Part shown: positions 2,374-38,776 of the stretch, in pieces | How positions within the stretch are numbered: position 1 is the stretch's first letter | Layout: each line of letters starts with the position of its first letter | Assembly: GCA_025363355.1 (NCBI GenBank) | Contig: JANYEB010000037.1 | Location: 1 to 64,000, forward strand | Length of the DNA stretch: 64,000 bases | Direction: 5' to 3' | Origin: Chitinophagaceae bacterium | GTDB lineage: Bacteria; Bacteroidota; Bacteroidia; Chitinophagales; Chitinophagaceae | Position numbers and translations under genes: made by a program | The notes under the pieces: model-generated | Databases searched by the model: none | The model's input: only the letters and a program-made list of their open reading frames with translations | Told to the model about the DNA's origin: nothing

Positions 2374-3627
2374 ATGCAATTGAAAAGAGTAGTAGTTACA
2401 GGAATTGGAGCTTTAACGCCCATAGGAAATAATTTAGAAGATTATTGGAATAATTTAGTAAATGGTGTTTCTGGTGCAGCGGCCATCACCAATTTTGATG
2501 CCTCTAAGTTTAAAACAAGATTTGCTTGCGAGATTAAAAATTTTGACCCACATATTTATCTTGACAAAAAAGAAGCAAGAAAATTAGATAGATTTTCTCA
2601 ATTTGCAGTTGCTGTTAGTGATCAAGCAATGACAGATGCTGGTTTAAATAAAGATAATATCAATCCAGATAGAGTAGGTGTTGTTTTTGCAAGTGGAATA
2701 GGCGGTCTAACAACATTTCAACACGAAGTTGCAGACTTTACAAGAGGCGATGGAACGCCACGTTTCAATCCTTTTTTCATTCCAAAAATGATATTGGATA
2801 TTGCTGCTGGGCATATTAGTATGCGACACAATTTACGAGGTCCAAACTTTGCTGTCGTGAGTGCTTGTGCAAGTAGTACAAATGCCATTGGTGTTGCATT
2901 TGACACAATTCGTCTTGGAAAATCAGATATTATTTTAGCAGGTGGAAGTGAGGCGGTTATTAGCGAGGCTGGAGTTGCTGGTTTTAATGCAATGAAAGCA
3001 ATGAGCGAAAGAAACGATGAGCCAACAACTGCAAGCAGACCTTATGATAAAGACAGAGATGGTTTTGTAATGGGAGAAGCAGCTGGACTTTTAGTTTTAG
3101 AAGAATTGGAACACGCTAAAGCTCGTGGTGCAAAAATTTATTGCGAAATAATGGGCTGTGGTGCAACTGCAGATGCTCATCATCTTACTGCTCCACATCC
3201 TGAAGGATTGGGTGCAAAAAATGTAATGATTGCTGCATTGCAAGAGGCAGGAATGAAACCAGAAGAAATTGATTATATCAATACCCACGGAACATCTACA
3301 CCAATTGGTGATGGTGCAGAAGTGAAAGCAATTACAAAAGTTTTTGGAGAACACGCATATAATTTAAATATTAGTTCTACAAAAAGTATGACTGGGCATT
3401 GCCTTGGTGCAGCAGGTGTTATAGAAGCTATTGCTTGTATTAAAGCTGTGATGCACGATGTTATTCCTCCTACAATTAATCATTTTACCGATGATCCTGA
3501 GTTGGATCCTAAGTTAAATTTTACTTTTAATAAAGCTCAACATAGAACTGTAAATGCTGCATTGAGCAATACATTTGGTTTTGGTGGTCATAATGCTTGC
3601 GTTATTGTAAAAAAATATAAAGACTAG
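2374..3627 (+). CDS. fabF: Beta-ketoacyl-ACP synthase II
   Basis: 417 aa; MKRVVVTGIGALTPIGN start, SACASSTNAIG active-site Cys, NTHGTSTPIGD and GHCLGAAG motifs; follows acpP. Confidence 0.97.
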   Translation: MQLKRVVVTGIGALTPIGNNLEDYWNNLVNGVSGAAAITNFDASKFKTRFACEIKNFDPHIYLDKKEARKLDRFSQFAVAVSDQAMTDAGLNKDNINPDRVGVVFASGIGGLTTFQHEVADFTRGDGTPRFNPFFIPKMILDIAAGHISMRHNLRGPNFAVVSACASSTNAIGVAFDTIRLGKSDIILAGGSEAVISEAGVAGFNAMKAMSERNDEPTTASRPYDKDRDGFVMGEAAGLLVLEELEHAKARGAKIYCEIMGCGATADAHHLTAPHPEGLGAKNVMIAALQEAGMKPEEIDYINTHGTSTPIGDGAEVKAITKVFGEHAYNLNISSTKSMTGHCLGAAGVIEAIACIKAVMHDVIPPTINHFTDDPELDPKLNFTFNKAQHRTVNAALSNTFGFGGHNACVIVKKYKD

Positions 3628-30928: not shown

Positions 30929-32989
30929 ATGAGAGTTTTAATATTTAATCTAATTTTCTGCTTCACTTTTATTTCACTTAAAACGGATGCACAGAATAAT
31001 GAACAAATAAGTCAACTTGCAAGAGATTCTATTGCATTTAATAAATTTTCAGATTCCTGTATAGCGAATAATGCAAAAGATTATTTAATTGAGGTTTACG
31101 ATAAATTAATCGTTGATGGTAAACTGGAAACACTACCATCACATCTTCGTTTTTTACAATCGCTATACGCCACTATGGATCATAATAACTACACACAAAA
31201 TAATTATTTTGTGTGTAGTTATATAGGCAGAATTATTTCTAAATATCATCTTGATGAAAACACACCCATCAAATATTTTAACGAGTCAATAAACATTGCT
31301 GAACAACTTCCTAACAAATGCCTAGTGCCTCTAACCTATAAGTATTTAGCATCCTTTTATTCAGATGTTAGACATAATTTATTAAAAACTTATGAGTATA
31401 ACAATATGATGATAGCTTACTTTAAGCAAAATAAAATGAATGGCATTATTGATTGTGGTGTTGATGCCAATATTGGAGCATCGGTAATCAGCTTTTATTT
31501 AGAAGACTATAATAGAGGTATCGCTCAGTTAAACGAAAGTATTGCTATTGTAAAAAAACTGAATAAACCCAAACGACTATATGACCTTTATAAAAGACGA
31601 AGCTTTTATGAAATGGAACTTTTAAGGTATGATGATGTATTAAAAACAATTGATACTGCTGAAATAATTGTTCAAAACCTATCAAATAAACAACAACTTG
31701 GAAATTTTATTAATGCTATCAGATTTAATGTGTTTGCAAATCAAGGGAAGTATGAAGATGCTGCTGAATACTCTAAAGTTATTGATGCAGAACAATTAAA
31801 ACAAGACAATGATGATTATTTTGATTATATGAATAACGTAATTAAAATGAATATTTTTTTTAATCAATTTAAAGATGCAGAAGTTAATATTGAAGGTTAT
31901 TCATCTTTATTAAAGCCCTGGAATATTCAGCGTTGGAGAAAACTATATGAAACAAAATACTTATTAGCAAAAAAAACAAATGATTATCAAACGGCATTAA
32001 ATGCTTATGAAAAGTTTAGATATTACGATGATTCTGTACACAGACAAAAGCAGCATTTGGTTATTATGGATCAGCAAGTAAAATATGAAACAAAGGAAAA
32101 AGATAATTTGTTGAAAGTGGAAATCAACAACAATGCTATATACCGTTTAGTGGTCATTTGTATAAGCTTAATGGCTTGTATTATTATACTCTTGATTTAT
32201 ATAAACTTTAAAAGAAGTAAAAAAAGTGTGAAAAAGCTAACACTATTAAATAACACAGTTAACCAACAAAAAAATCAAGTAGAATTAGCATTAATACAAG
32301 TTGAAAAAGCCAATAAAGACAAGGATAGAATTTTAAATGTTGTGGCTCACGACCTACGAAATCCTATTGGTGCTATTGCTAATTTTTTAGACATTGCACA
32401 AGTTAAATATGAACATAGTGAAGAAGAGGAACAGATATTAAGAACCAGCCAACAAGCAGCAGTTCACTCACTAACATTAATCAATGATTTGCTAGAAGTG
32501 AACCAAATGCAGGAAGGCAATTTAGTAATCAATAAAACCCGGATTGATATTAAACAATTAGCAGAACAGTCTATAGAATACTTACGATATAAAGCCATTG
32601 CAAAACAACAAACTATTATTTTGCAAGCACCAGAGAAAAGTTATTATGTAAATGCAGATGCCGAAAAACTACAAAGAGTTATTTCCAATTTAATAGATAA
32701 TGCTGTTAAGTTTAGTTATATTGGCAAAGAGGTAATGGTAAATATTCATCAACAACAAGAGCAAGTTGAAATTAGCATTACAGATAATGGCGTTGGTATT
32801 CCACCAAACATCATAGAACAATTGTTTACAGCTTCCATCACCGTAAAAAGAAAAGGAACAAATAACGAAAAATCTAATGGATTAGGCTTATCAATTTGTA
32901 AACAAATAATAGAAGCACATAATGGAAAAATATTTGTTGAAAGTATTGAGGGAAAAGGTACTTGCTTTACTGTGCAATTACTTGTTTAA
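30929..32989 (+). CDS. TPR sensor histidine kinase (signal peptide, TPR sensor, TM, HisKA, HATPase_c)
   Basis: NVVAHDLRNPIGAIANFLD H-box, NLIDNAVKFS N-box, ITDNGVGIP and SNGLGLSICKQII G-boxes; N-terminal helical repeats and one TM before the kinase core. Confidence 0.92.
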   Translation: MRVLIFNLIFCFTFISLKTDAQNNEQISQLARDSIAFNKFSDSCIANNAKDYLIEVYDKLIVDGKLETLPSHLRFLQSLYATMDHNNYTQNNYFVCSYIGRIISKYHLDENTPIKYFNESINIAEQLPNKCLVPLTYKYLASFYSDVRHNLLKTYEYNNMMIAYFKQNKMNGIIDCGVDANIGASVISFYLEDYNRGIAQLNESIAIVKKLNKPKRLYDLYKRRSFYEMELLRYDDVLKTIDTAEIIVQNLSNKQQLGNFINAIRFNVFANQGKYEDAAEYSKVIDAEQLKQDNDDYFDYMNNVIKMNIFFNQFKDAEVNIEGYSSLLKPWNIQRWRKLYETKYLLAKKTNDYQTALNAYEKFRYYDDSVHRQKQHLVIMDQQVKYETKEKDNLLKVEINNNAIYRLVVICISLMACIIILLIYINFKRSKKSVKKLTLLNNTVNQQKNQVELALIQVEKANKDKDRILNVVAHDLRNPIGAIANFLDIAQVKYEHSEEEEQILRTSQQAAVHSLTLINDLLEVNQMQEGNLVINKTRIDIKQLAEQSIEYLRYKAIAKQQTIILQAPEKSYYVNADAEKLQRVISNLIDNAVKFSYIGKEVMVNIHQQQEQVEISITDNGVGIPPNIIEQLFTASITVKRKGTNNEKSNGLGLSICKQIIEAHNGKIFVESIEGKGTCFTVQLLV
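31185..31222. repeat. Perfect 38-bp palindrome within the histidine kinase CDS
   Basis: ATAACTACACACAAAATAA|TTATTTTGTGTGTAGTTAT; arms of 19 bp with no loop, checked base by base. Confidence 0.97.
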
Positions 32990-33031: not shown

Positions 33032-33784
33032 TTATCCCACTATATTCAATCTTTGCTTTACATCTTTTATGTAGGCTTTTGTAATAGCAATTTTTTTAAT
33101 TGGAGTTGCAATCTCATCTTCATCAATTTCGGTAATGCAACCTATTTGCACGGCTTCGCTTCTGTTTACTTGCAAAAAGGTATCTTGTAAATGTTTAGGC
33201 ACTTGAAACTTTAAAGTCATTGCCAAAGAGCTGCGAACATAGTGTTCTGATTTGTCTTGAAACATAAGCACAGTATAGTTATCGGCAGATGATAATAACA
33301 CTACATCTTTCCACTCCACTCGTTTTAATTTATTTCTTGTTTTAATGAAGAAGAAATCTGCTGCTAGATTTTGCTGCAACGAGCCAGTTTGTTTATTACT
33401 AAAATTTTGAATGGCAGTTTGAATGCAAGCAAACAAGGTTGCTGCATTTGGAGGTTTTACCAAATAAGCAGCAGGATTTGCTTTTATTGCTTCGGCAATA
33501 ATTGCAGTATCTGAAATGCCCGTTATAAAAATAAATGGCAAACGATACAAATTATTAATCATAGCTCCTATTTCAATGCCACTGCGGGTGCCATTCAAAT
33601 CAATATCTACCAGGGCTATGTCAAAATGTTCTTTATTTAAAAAACTAATAGCAGCTTCAAGTGTGTGTGCAATACCTTTTACAGTAAAGCCAAATTCTTT
33701 CAGCATCATGTTCATACTATCGGCTGTTATAGGGTCATCTTCTATTATTAACACTTGTATTTCTTGTAAACTTTCTTGTATCAT
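33032..33784 (-). CDS. LytTR-family response regulator (REC + LytTR); start placed at MIQESLQEIQ
   Basis: VLIIEDDPITADSMNMML, DIALVDIDLNGTRSG, PFIFITG, YLVKPPN (receiver), then FFIKTRNKLKRVEWKDVVLLSSADNYTVL...VRSSLAMTL...FLQVNRSEAV (LytTR). Confidence 0.92.
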   Translation of the reverse strand: MIQESLQEIQVLIIEDDPITADSMNMMLKEFGFTVKGIAHTLEAAISFLNKEHFDIALVDIDLNGTRSGIEIGAMINNLYRLPFIFITGISDTAIIAEAIKANPAAYLVKPPNAATLFACIQTAIQNFSNKQTGSLQQNLAADFFFIKTRNKLKRVEWKDVVLLSSADNYTVLMFQDKSEHYVRSSLAMTLKFQVPKHLQDTFLQVNRSEAVQIGCITEIDEDEIATPIKKIAITKAYIKDVKQRLNIVG

Positions 33785-33840
33785 TTGTGTTTTTTTAGAA
33801 ACTGCAAAGTACAGGCAATATAGCTGCCACCATTTTTTTT

Positions 33841-33903
33841 CATCTACAAAAAATGATGTTTCATCCACAAAAAAAGACTGTTCATCACCAAACATTAAAA
33901 AAT
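33841..33903. repeat. Direct repeat, three units at exact 21-bp spacing, upstream of the LytTR regulator; candidate LytTR operator
   Basis: Units begin at 33841 (CATCTACAAAAAATG), 33862 (CATCCACAAAAAAAG) and 33883 (CATCACCAAAC). The same unit occurs at 35174 and 35195. Confidence 0.75.
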
Positions 33904-34064: not shown

Positions 34065-34820
34065 TTATTTGCCTTCTTCTTTCTTTGGCTCTTCTTTTTT
34101 CTTAACAAGAGTTGCTACTATTAATTGTTTATATTGATCAATGGTGCTATTCATATTATCTATACAAGTTTTAATAGCAGTAGTATCTAAACCATCTGCT
34201 AATGCTGTACTATATCTTGAAGAAACAATATTAACTAAAGCATCGTAAGCAGTTTTTGCCTCTGGTCTTAATGCTGTAAAGCTTTTTACTTTTTTATCAT
34301 CGCTAATGCTGGTTGTTCTGTTTTTATATAAATCTATAAAGGCATTATTAGCCACTTCAATTTCATCAATCCATTCCACTCCGTCAATTACAGCAAGTGC
34401 AGCTATAAGGTCGTTTTTTGTTGTGCAATCTTTGGCAATAGTGCTAAGTGTTGCCGATTCTGCTGCATTATTTTCTCCTGCAATATCGCTACCAAAAGCT
34501 TTTAGGTAATTAAGTATAGCAGTGGCAGCATCCCTTTTTGCTTGCTTAGGATTTTTTTGTAGGGCTTTTAACCAAGCCACAAACCCCGATATAGCAATAT
34601 CTCTTCTTTTATCGGCTGCAATTAGTTTTTGAGTTTCTTCGTTGGCAGCTTCAATGGCAAGTGCTGTTTGCAAATCGGGTAGCAAACTGTTTAGTGCATC
34701 TCGTTCGGGTTTAATCTTGCTTTTTACAACATCTGTTTTGTTGGCAATGCCAATAATGAGGGTTAAAAACATAAAGAACTCTTTAGCCGTAAGATCTTTT
34801 GTTGAAATTTTGTGAATCAT
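34065..34820 (-). CDS. Hypothetical helical protein, possibly DUF6261-like; start trimmed to MIHKISTKDL
   Basis: Helix-rich ~250 aa with a C-terminal Lys/Glu tail (VKKKEEPKKEEGK); own terminator. Family name is from recall, not a search. Confidence 0.5.
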   Translation of the reverse strand: MIHKISTKDLTAKEFFMFLTLIIGIANKTDVVKSKIKPERDALNSLLPDLQTALAIEAANEETQKLIAADKRRDIAISGFVAWLKALQKNPKQAKRDAATAILNYLKAFGSDIAGENNAAESATLSTIAKDCTTKNDLIAALAVIDGVEWIDEIEVANNAFIDLYKNRTTSISDDKKVKSFTALRPEAKTAYDALVNIVSSRYSTALADGLDTTAIKTCIDNMNSTIDQYKQLIVATLVKKKEEPKKEEGK

Positions 34821-34912
34821 AACTTTTTGAATTTTAAGTGTGAAGAATGAATTTCGAAAATAAGACACCCTTTTTTCTTTTCAAAAAAATAAGTGTTAAA
34901 ATTTTCTAAACA

Positions 34913-35158
34913 TTATTTCAAACTGAAATTGAGCAAAAGAAGTTTCTGTGGCATTATTTCAAAGTGAAATTGGTCAAAAGAAGTTTCCGTGGGGTTATTT
35001 CAAACTGAAATTGGGTAAGAGAAGTTTCCGTGGTGTTATTTCAAAGTGAAATTGAGCAAAAGAAGTTTCTGTGGCATTATTTCAAAGTGAAATTGAGCAA
35101 AAGAAGTTTCTGTGGCATTATTTCAAAGTGAAATTGAATAAAAGAAGTTTCCTTAGCT
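34913..35158. repeat. Noncoding tandem array: 6 units of exactly 41 bp, each with a TTTCA-N3-TGAAA dyad
   Basis: Units start at 34913, 34954, 34995, 35036, 35077, 35118. Consensus TTATTTCAAAGTGAAATTGAGCAAAAGAAGTTTCTGTGGCA; units 4 and 5 are identical. Confidence 0.97.
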
Positions 35159-35173
35159 TAATGTTCAATTTCT

Positions 35174-35215
35174 CATCCACAAAAAAAGCTAGTTCATCCA
35201 CAAAAAAAGTGGGTT
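35174..35215. promoter_or_regulatory. Pair of 21-bp direct repeats upstream of the Cys-repeat T9SS protein; candidate LytTR operator
   Basis: CATCCACAAAAAAAGCTAGTT (35174) and CATCCACAAAAAAAGTGGGTT (35195); same 15-mer as in the promoter of the LytTR gene. Confidence 0.75.
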
Positions 35216-35284
35216 TAGTCCCAGTGTGGGTGTAAGAAATGTATTTTTCATTTTTTTTACATTCTTTAACCAAAACAAAAAAGT

Positions 35285-38200
35285 ATGAAAACAGAAATTA
35301 CTACACCAAAGCAAGTAAAAGCATCTTTACTAATTCTATTTTTATGTGGAATGTTTTTTAATGGTTTTTCACAGTCTTTAACTATAACCACACCCGATGC
35401 AACTTTTTGCGAAGGAGGGTATAGATATATTTACGCCAACTTTACCCCCCCAACTAATATACAAAATTATGTTGGTTATCAAATAACTGATATTAGATGG
35501 TATAAAAGTGGTCCTTACGGCACTACTTTAATACCTAGTAACCTCTACGGTTACCTCTCTTGTTATGCATACGAAACAGGGCGATATTATTGTCAAATTG
35601 ATTATAGTATTAAGACTTCATACCAATACGTAACAAGTACCTACTGCTGCCAATCTGGTCCATTTGGATCTTGCAAGAAATACTGTAATAATTATGCAAC
35701 AGGATACACAACTCAAAACTATTATCAACTTTGGTCGAATAACTCTTGCTATATAACAGTAAAACCTAAATCTTACACAACACAACACATTTCTATTTGT
35801 AGTAATGCTTTGCCATATAATTGGAATGGCTATTCTTTGTATAGCGAGGGTACCTATTATAAGACTCTATACAACTCAGTTGGCTGCGATAGTGTAGTAA
35901 CCTTGAATTTAAGCGTAGGAACTTCTGGTGCAACTTCTTACGATAGTGCTATTGTTTGCAGTAGTGGATTACCCTATAGTTGGAATGGATTGAGTCTTTC
36001 AACTGCTGGGGATTATTCACAAAACTTCACTTCTGCAAGTGGTTGTGACAGCATTGCTAACTTTAAATTAATTGTCAGTGCAGCTAACACATCATCAAAT
36101 TATGCTACTACCTGCAGCAGCTCTTTGCCATATTTATGGAATGGAATTAGTTGCGATAGTTCGGGGACTTACTCAAAAATATTTAATTCACCGGGTGGTT
36201 GCGATAGTGTAGCTGTTTTAAACCTAACCGTGCATCAAACAACATCATCTGTCACCAATATTCTTGCCTGCCAAAATGCAGTGCCGTTTTGGTGGAATAA
36301 TAAGCTTGTTAATGTAGGAAGCGATACTGTACATCTTACAAATGCTACTGGCTGCGATAGTATTGCAATTGTAAACGTTACTATTAAGCCTGTTGGCACT
36401 TCAACACGAACTGTTAATATTTGCCCTACGGGTTTGCCTTATGCCTGGAACAATAGCACTTATGGAACAGCAGGTGTATATACACAACTATTTACAACAA
36501 ATAGTGGCTGCGATAGTGTTGCTACCCTTAATTTAATTGTAAACACGCCAACTTCCTCAACAAATAATATAGGTATTTGTCAATCTGCATTGCCTTACAG
36601 TTGGAACGGTAATAGCTACACATCAGCAGGAACTTACAGTGTTCATTTAATAAATGCCAATGGATGCGATAGTGTAGCTACTCTAAATCTATATATTAAT
36701 AGCACAAGTAGTACCACACAAAGTATATTGGTTTGTCAAAGCAGTTTACCTTATTTATGGAATGGTAATAGTTATTCCACAGCTGGAACTTATATAGCAC
36801 ATTTAAACAACAGCAATGGATGTGATAGTTCTGTTACATTATACTTAAGCGTTTCATCTGCAGATTCATCTTCAACATCTGTAACAATCTGCCGTTCTCA
36901 ACTACCATACAGTTGGAATGGACTTGTATGCCAACAAGCGGGTAAATACCTAGTCCATTTGTCTACAAAAAAGGGTTGTGATAGTTTAGCATATTTAAAT
37001 CTAAATGTAATAGCACAAGTAAAAAAAGTCACTGTGCAATCATCTGTTTCTCCTAACGATTCGGTTTGTTTTTCAAAACCAATTACTTTCACTGCAATCC
37101 CAACAATTGACTCGTCATTATGTAACCTTTCAAATAATTTATTCTCATTCAACTGGAGGAAAAATAATACCGAAATTAGAATATCAAATACAGTAATCTA
37201 TTCTAGTTCCACCTATATAGATAGTATTTCTAAGGGGAATGACTCCATATTTATATACTTATTATCAACTGAATTGCCTGGCACTACAAACACTTATTGT
37301 ACAGATGGTGGGTTTCTTATTCGTAGCATCAATACAATTGTTACAAAAGTAAAAACACCTAAGGTAATGCCTGTTATAACTTTTCGACCTACTTATCCAT
37401 CATACGCTACAATTTTTGATTCAAAGACAGGAATTTTAGATCAAGGGTTAATTAGTCTTTGTTCTGTTAATGATTATTTAACTGCAGAATCTAATGTAAC
37501 GAATGGCATTTGGAGTGCTCAAGATACTAACTTAATTAAAATAACCACTTCAATAGTAAATAATAAGCAAACTGCAATTTTGAAAGCAACAGGTTTGAAT
37601 GGCGTTGCTAAAGTGTTATACAAGACCAATGATAATGGATGTTCAATTACGCTTACTGGAACAATTGCAATTGATACAATTAACCTACTAAACAATGCAA
37701 TTATTACAGGGCCTTCAGAAACTTGCTCTGGCACTATAGTACAGTACACATCTTCTGTGTCTGGTGGTTTATGGACAACCTATAACAGTGGTTTATATCT
37801 TCAGGGTACAGGTCGATATGGGGAGTTTAATGCTAAAATAGGATCAGCATTTTTACCTCAGAATGTTTATGCAAATACTTATATCGGTTATTATAAGGAT
37901 CATTACAATGCAACGGGATCTTGCCGTAGTTACATACAAAAAACTGTTAAAATTCATCCTGCACCTACTGCTTATCCAGTTATTAACGGTCCTTCTTCTA
38001 TTTGTGTTGGTTCAACAGCACAGTTCTCTAGTAATTTCCCTATAGGTTACTGGTCGTGTACTGGTGGAGCAACGGTAAATGGAGGAACTGGCGAGTTTAA
38101 AGCTGGAGCTGCAGGAGGCACTTATCTTTTATATAATGCTGTAGTGAATTCTATGGGATGCACTAATTCTACTACAAAGACAATTACAATCAACCCACTG

Positions 38201-38776
38201 CCAGCAGTACCATTAATATCTTTTGGCTCAAATGCTGGCAATCCGACAGCAGGAACAGGCTTATCTGGTCAATACTGTGTAGGTAAGAAGTTCACATTAG
38301 TAGGCAATCCAACTGGTGGACACTTTACGTTTACAAATACGGCCACAGCAATTATAGCAGATAGTTTGGTATCAGCTAACAATTGGTGGGGAACTGTGAA
38401 AATAGTAGGTGTAGGAACAGGTAATATAGTTTATACAGTTACGAATGCATCAGGTTGTTCAAACTTTAGATCTATGGTAGGAAAAGGAGTAGCTTGTGCA
38501 GGTAGAGGTGTAGACATCAACAGTGATGCTACTAAACCAGTATTTGACTTTACAATGTATCCAAATCCTGCAAAAGGGTATATCAACTTAAATGTTGAAA
38601 CCTTAGTTGGTGCTGGAAGTATTGTAGTTACAGACTTATATGGCAAAACAGTTAAGTCTCAACCTTTGAGTATGGGAACAAACACAGTAGATATTGCTAA
38701 TCTAAGTAAAGGGTTTTACTTGGTAAGTACGATTACAAGCGAAGGAAAAACAACTAAGAAATTAGTGGTGGAATAA
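35285..38776 (+). CDS. Large secreted T9SS cargo protein with 8 Cys-containing ~50-aa repeats and type-A sorting domain
   Basis: Signal peptide (LLILFLCGMFFNGFSQS). Repeats of form C-x4-LPYxWNG...GTY...GCDSVATLNLxV. C-terminal MYPNPAKGYINLNVE...VTDLYGKTV...LSKGFYLVSTITSEGKTTKKLVVE. Confidence 0.92.
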   Translation: MKTEITTPKQVKASLLILFLCGMFFNGFSQSLTITTPDATFCEGGYRYIYANFTPPTNIQNYVGYQITDIRWYKSGPYGTTLIPSNLYGYLSCYAYETGRYYCQIDYSIKTSYQYVTSTYCCQSGPFGSCKKYCNNYATGYTTQNYYQLWSNNSCYITVKPKSYTTQHISICSNALPYNWNGYSLYSEGTYYKTLYNSVGCDSVVTLNLSVGTSGATSYDSAIVCSSGLPYSWNGLSLSTAGDYSQNFTSASGCDSIANFKLIVSAANTSSNYATTCSSSLPYLWNGISCDSSGTYSKIFNSPGGCDSVAVLNLTVHQTTSSVTNILACQNAVPFWWNNKLVNVGSDTVHLTNATGCDSIAIVNVTIKPVGTSTRTVNICPTGLPYAWNNSTYGTAGVYTQLFTTNSGCDSVATLNLIVNTPTSSTNNIGICQSALPYSWNGNSYTSAGTYSVHLINANGCDSVATLNLYINSTSSTTQSILVCQSSLPYLWNGNSYSTAGTYIAHLNNSNGCDSSVTLYLSVSSADSSSTSVTICRSQLPYSWNGLVCQQAGKYLVHLSTKKGCDSLAYLNLNVIAQVKKVTVQSSVSPNDSVCFSKPITFTAIPTIDSSLCNLSNNLFSFNWRKNNTEIRISNTVIYSSSTYIDSISKGNDSIFIYLLSTELPGTTNTYCTDGGFLIRSINTIVTKVKTPKVMPVITFRPTYPSYATIFDSKTGILDQGLISLCSVNDYLTAESNVTNGIWSAQDTNLIKITTSIVNNKQTAILKATGLNGVAKVLYKTNDNGCSITLTGTIAIDTINLLNNAIITGPSETCSGTIVQYTSSVSGGLWTTYNSGLYLQGTGRYGEFNAKIGSAFLPQNVYANTYIGYYKDHYNATGSCRSYIQKTVKIHPAPTAYPVINGPSSICVGSTAQFSSNFPIGYWSCTGGATVNGGTGEFKAGAAGGTYLLYNAVVNSMGCTNSTTKTITINPLPAVPLISFGSNAGNPTAGTGLSGQYCVGKKFTLVGNPTGGHFTFTNTATAIIADSLVSANNWWGTVKIVGVGTGNIVYTVTNASGCSNFRSMVGKGVACAGRGVDINSDATKPVFDFTMYPNPAKGYINLNVETLVGAGSIVVTDLYGKTVKSQPLSMGTNTVDIANLSKGFYLVSTITSEGKTTKKLVVE

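Follow-up and report, generated by a model that had tools for sequence, protein, structure and literature searches.

Heterocystous cyanobacteria carry long tandem repeats (LTRR) that belong to one conserved 37-bp sequence family. The LTRR are named in PMC2408588, and among the Bacteroidota the BrickBuilt elements of Porphyromonas gingivalis consist of spacer-free tandem repeats of 23 nt, always intergenic and dispersed, which constitute a single sequence family with 19 copies in strain ATCC 33277, marked by a leader end, a tail end and inverted termini (PMC4596501). Subirana and Messeguer, in the available part of their prokaryotic-satellite survey (2019, PMC6749651), put the periods of long repeats down to multiples of 3 (coding). 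The operators of LytTR regulators are built from two or three direct repeats of about 9 bp that are 10–13 bp apart (PMC11347149).

The window (the whole 64,000-nucleotide stretch of Chitinophagaceae DNA analysed here) contains a tandem array of 41-bp units between two divergent genes. The features concerned are as follows.

34065–34820, minus strand: DUF6261 protein (Pfam DUF6261, 4e-25; the ORF is listed to 34868, with the ATG at 34820 the likely start)
34913–35158, plus strand: tandem array of six 41-bp units (TRF, repeat finder, units printed)
34915–34929, no strand: dyad ATTTCA-N3-TGAAAT of unit 1 (from the sequence; recurs in each unit at 41-bp spacing, the last copy at 35120–35134)
35285–38776, plus strand: 1163-aa protein with a type IX secretion (T9SS) sorting tail (Pfam Por_Secre_tail, 7e-13; TIGR04183)

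Read by eye in register, 34913–35158 comprises six units without gaps, whose first bases are at 34913, 34954, 34995, 35036, 35077 and 35118, and TRF reports a period-41 array at 34911–35151 with 5.9 copies, 90% matches, 0% indels and a score of 377. The fourth and fifth units are identical, and the first differs from both by nothing but a C for G in the middle of the dyad. TRF, the repeat finder and the register thus confirm the exact array of six that the first-pass annotation had described, and its account of units 1, 4 and 5 is likewise correct, as are its placement of the array between divergent genes (DUF6261 on the minus strand, the T9SS-sorted protein on the plus strand) and of 21-bp direct repeats separating the array from the start of the T9SS gene. 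The TTTCA-N3-TGAAA that it saw in every unit extends to ATTTCA-N3-TGAAAT, present in six of six. The array was also rightly taken to be non-coding: it lies between ORFs, and since the unit is 41 bp and no ORF spans the array, a coding repeat is ruled out. With at least four contiguous, head-to-tail, non-coding units of 10–200 nt it is a prokaryotic satellite or minisatellite. The units are contiguous and without spacers, which excludes a CRISPR array, and intrinsically curved DNA is excluded by the 10.5-bp A/T signal of the window array (p = 0.37 against shuffled units). The 41-mer has no match in dinucleotide shuffles of the window.

The promoter consensus of Bacteroidota type is TTTG-N18-TANNTTTG, and on the minus strand of 34913–35158 four units carry TTTG-N18-TTCTTTTG, one mismatch away and directed at DUF6261. 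The ORF list of the related genome G001 has no DUF6261 ORF at the corresponding place. The T9SS protein has about 34–45 matches per genome in G000, G001 and G002, many of them ORFs with long coding repeats of 147–156 bp.

The 21-bp direct repeats next to the array have a counterpart, not remarked on in the first-pass annotation, upstream of a nearby regulatory gene.

30929–32989, plus strand: sensor histidine kinase that probably acts with the regulator (Pfam HisKA, HATPase_c; a related kinase adjoins the regulator in G001)
33032–33784, minus strand: LytTR-family response regulator with receiver and LytTR DNA-binding domains (Pfam Response_reg, LytTR)
33839–33889, plus strand: presumed LytTR operator ahead of the regulator gene (retained in G001 and G003)
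35172–35222, plus strand: LytTR operator presumed to serve the T9SS gene (the pattern occurs in the genome at this locus only; in G001 it is conserved ahead of the T9SS counterpart)

The T9SS gene is preceded by the half-sites CTCATCCAC (35172–35180), TTCATCCAC (35193–35201) and a degenerate third, TTTAGTCCC (35214–35222), in 21-bp steps; those before the regulator gene (33839–33889) are TTCATCTAC, TTCATCCAC and TTCATCACC, with the same step. With 21-bp steps and 12-bp gaps, the TTCATCCAC half-sites fit the definition of a LytTR operator. Written as TTCATCCAC-N12-TTCATCCAC, the box pair matches the genome solely at 33839–33892 (upstream of the LytTR gene) and 35172–35204 (upstream of the T9SS gene), and the reversed control pattern has no match in the genome. 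The pair co-occurs with the regulator across the genus: the three genomes that have the regulator (G000, G001 and G003, at 100, 91 and 65% identity) have the pair, solely at the regulator's locus, and G002, where the best regulator match is partial and 36% identical, does not. It stands at the same two places in G001 (regulator 91% identical), and upstream of the regulator gene only in G003 (65%), in which no T9SS relative was found. The regulator itself is likely to start with MIQESLQ at 33784, and its G001 ortholog, 91% identical, starts at the same place; the ORF finder call (33032–33895, minus strand) adds 37 codons that run through the 21-bp boxes.

What is conserved for regulation at the T9SS promoter is the presumed LytTR box pair, and we infer that the regulator at 33032–33784 acts through these boxes on both its own gene and the T9SS gene. 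Judged from sequence, the switch of the T9SS gene is most likely the predicted LytTR box triplet at 35172–35222, not the 41-bp array. The array is not itself a LytTR operator, as the box-pair pattern does not match it with 3 mismatches allowed.

Searches with the array in the 3.6-Mb assembly give a single further match (C115:2912–3016, 82% identical), a sister array of 2.9 copies (three units) with a period of 41 bp, which the first-pass annotation did not mention. Two genes converge on it, an ORF whose end is at 2901 and a methyltransferase gene whose end is at 3032, and the array fills the gap; the sister site is not a promoter. The unit occupies two loci, one of them away from promoters, which goes part of the way towards the outcome that the first-pass annotation had set against its own proposal, a dispersed repeat unrelated to promoters. 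Similarity between the loci is limited to the units, with no shared leader or tail and no terminal inverted repeats, and a BrickBuilt-type MITE is ruled out. In 199 relatives and 398 phylum genomes the unit has only lone matches of 26–43 nt, and plasmids have none; a family dispersed across relatives was rejected, the two lone matches that were inspected, L024 and L025, looking like chance and belonging to no array. A world-wide conserved 41-bp family was rejected too, since paired TTTCAAASTGAAA occurs in only 7 stretches of a GTDB scan. Six of the 7 are arrays, in unrelated phyla, with periods of 42, 40, 42, 52, 42 and 41; that they share the period preference is suggestive, the stretches having been chosen by the paired-core pattern itself. 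On a contig of Fundicoccus ignavus (L026, 6353–7773), about 1.5 kb of sequence holds two 42-bp arrays that are unrelated to each other.

At the syntenic site in the congener G001, between the two box clusters, there is a 42-bp array of 9.8 copies with a different sequence. The similarity of the window 41-mer to this 42-mer is not above that of shuffles (p = 0.13), and homology is unsupported. The G001 array has a second copy of 3.4 units between two T9SS genes (C93:1698–1848) and no copy in the other three genomes.

These comparisons bear on whether a dimeric regulator bound to the six dyads tunes transcription of DUF6261, the T9SS gene or both. The site between divergent genes would suit such an operator array, as would dyad arms that are invariant (see below) and the near-matches to the promoter consensus that four minus-strand units direct at DUF6261. 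The sister array, however, lies in a convergent gap, the array is not conserved at the syntenic promoter of G001, and the LytTR boxes account for the conservation at the promoter, so that we regard an operator specific to the flanking genes as possible yet improbable. The dedicated operator for the divergent promoters that had been proposed at first is unsupported because the sister array is convergent, the array is replaced in G001 by an unrelated one and conservation is confined to the box pair; arrays of this class moreover occur in all gene contexts. An eye-catching array beside a promoter can mislead, and the conserved regulatory sites here are the plainer 21-bp boxes that adjoin it.

The array has company. 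A TRF survey for arrays with a period of at least 15, covering stretches of three species (G000, G001 and G002) with 115 kb of intergenic DNA, gives 33 intergenic arrays of many unrelated sequences. Their periods are 21 bp (15 arrays), 42 bp (8), 84 bp (2), 126 bp (1), 41 bp (2) and 20, 24, 33 or 87 bp (five together). Multiples of 21 bp account for 26 of the 33, with 2 more at 41 bp (binomial p about 1e-27 for the 26, under the crude null that periods of 15–130 are equally likely), and ten dinucleotide shuffles yield two arrays in total. Lags 21 and 42 are the highest in the intergenic autocorrelation of samples of G000, G001 and G002. Lag 21 is also high in G008 (another genus of the same family) and in G169 (another family of the same order), where a 21-bp array of 6.5 copies is found (L125); 21-bp arrays were not seen in samples of four other families, E. 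coli or G136 (same order), and G200 (same class) has 20, 21 and 22 bp. Most of the surveyed stretches were selected for T9SS genes, and ten arbitrary contigs together with the remainder of the window's contig show the same period pattern. The arrays lie between co-directional genes (14), divergent genes (9), convergent genes (5) or at contig edges (5), and their position is not tied to promoters. Unit length is quantised, and sequence is replaced between species. We tentatively assign the window array to a genus-wide class of intergenic arrays whose units measure two or four helical turns (21 or 42 bp, here 41). With only 7 LytTR genes in the genome, 21-bp arrays in general are unlikely to be LytTR operators.

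Two further loci deserve mention. One 21-bp array sits in a duplicated segment of 290 bp, whose two copies in the window genome (L063 14861–15140 and L182 1960–2240) are 82% identical. Contig C23 of G003 (L137) is very A-rich, has many low-complexity repeats and is possibly foreign to the assembly.

Several features of the units suggest constraint. First, 19 arrays compared with their own consensus have 23 gaps per 454 mismatches, and orthologous non-coding DNA of G000 and G001 has 47 gap openings per 213 substitutions; indels are about fourfold scarcer in the arrays than in ordinary intergenic DNA (Fisher p about 1e-8), a deficit that is suggestive only, because TRF is biased towards arrays without gaps and the alignments compared differ in method. 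Second, when the nine window and sister units are aligned, 21 of the 41 columns vary, although none of the 12 dyad-arm columns does (p = 1.6e-5), and variation in the dyad is confined to the third spacer base. Of the earlier argument from a unit of four helical turns to dyads bound by a dimeric regulator, one half stands: period quantisation and invariant arms suggest that spacing matters. The other half, a regulator of the flanking promoters, is unsupported. Across the class the excess of dyads is modest (mean z 0.63), and 10.5-bp A/T phasing was not found in 24 arrays (combined p = 0.33).

The window genome also has a 42-bp family with a 7–8-bp stem and a variable loop at several loci. Its CTTTCGGG/CCCGAAAG stems occur at four (L143 519–622, L183, L184 and L185), L183 and L184 having common flanks and a paralogous neighbouring gene start. 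At one locus of the family the pair is changed to CTTGCGGG/CCCGCAAG, the arm still being complementary. This change, the conserved stem with its variable loop and the folding of both strands of the window array, better than that of shuffles (z -2.6 and -3.3), would be in keeping with an element that acts as RNA, its transcribed units forming serial hairpins of a terminator-like or stabilising kind. Tandem dyads nevertheless fold by construction, stem covariation is nil in the window family and elsewhere not above shuffles except marginally, and the window array has no Rfam RNA, tRNA or terminator match; we consider such a role very improbable.

The explanation that we favour, although with reserve, is that of helix-phased dyad arrays, both as a sequence class and in their role. 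Each unit would present its ATTTCA-N3-TGAAAT dyad on roughly the same face of the DNA, selection would hold arm sequence and spacing while the linkers drift, and the arrays would offer a dimeric or architectural DNA-binding protein a series of docking sites. Local amplification would create arrays, with occasional spread to second sites and quick replacement between species. There are objections. One sequence-specific partner cannot explain unrelated units; the dyad excess is modest, A/T phasing is lacking and the tests of stem covariation are weak; TRF ascertainment favours indel-free arrays, and 41 bp is 42 minus one base.

Nearly as likely is a neutral minisatellite, made and erased by slippage or unequal recombination, whose 21/42-bp step reflects a mutational mechanism such as a two-turn register of strand exchange. 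The unrelated sequences, the presence of arrays in all gene contexts, their loss or replacement between congeners and the modest dyad excess all fit this, and some dispersal has occurred through duplicated flanks, not units (L183/L184 and L063/L182). It accords less well with the indel deficit, with arms that are invariant although linkers vary, and with the recurrence of an array of unrelated sequence beside the LytTR boxes in G001. A broader reading, not tied to either explanation, seems rather unlikely, namely an undescribed Bacteroidota class of arbitrary sequence and of length locked to two or four turns, by a phase-sensing protein or by duplication that measures turns, in which the 40–42-bp and 52-bp dyad arrays of other phyla would be included. 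If the quantised period holds in complete genomes, it becomes testable what counts two helical turns in non-coding DNA; in these bacteria the candidates are a binding protein and the duplication machinery.

Comparison with the known systems separates the boxes from the array. The boxes resemble the CoxC/RcoM LytTR operators, in which three direct repeats follow one another at intervals of about two helical turns (PMC11347149), and the likeness covers the boxes only, the 41-bp array having dyads and not half-sites. The TAACTGA heptamer repeats (PMC4679880) are a different repeat. The LTRR, also tandem repeats without spacers, resemble the window array in unit size and in their intergenic location, and the sequences are unrelated. 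Prokaryotic satellites share with the arrays described here a non-coding tandem organisation, mostly unrelated sequences and rare dispersal, and the available part of that survey (PMC6749651) describes no 21/42-bp non-coding class. Within the open-access literature the nearest described element in the phylum is BrickBuilt (PMC4596501), which like the window array consists of spacer-free intergenic tandem repeats in the Bacteroidota; unlike it, the window and sister arrays have solely their units in common, and the arrays here form many unrelated few-copy families quantised at 21/42 bp.
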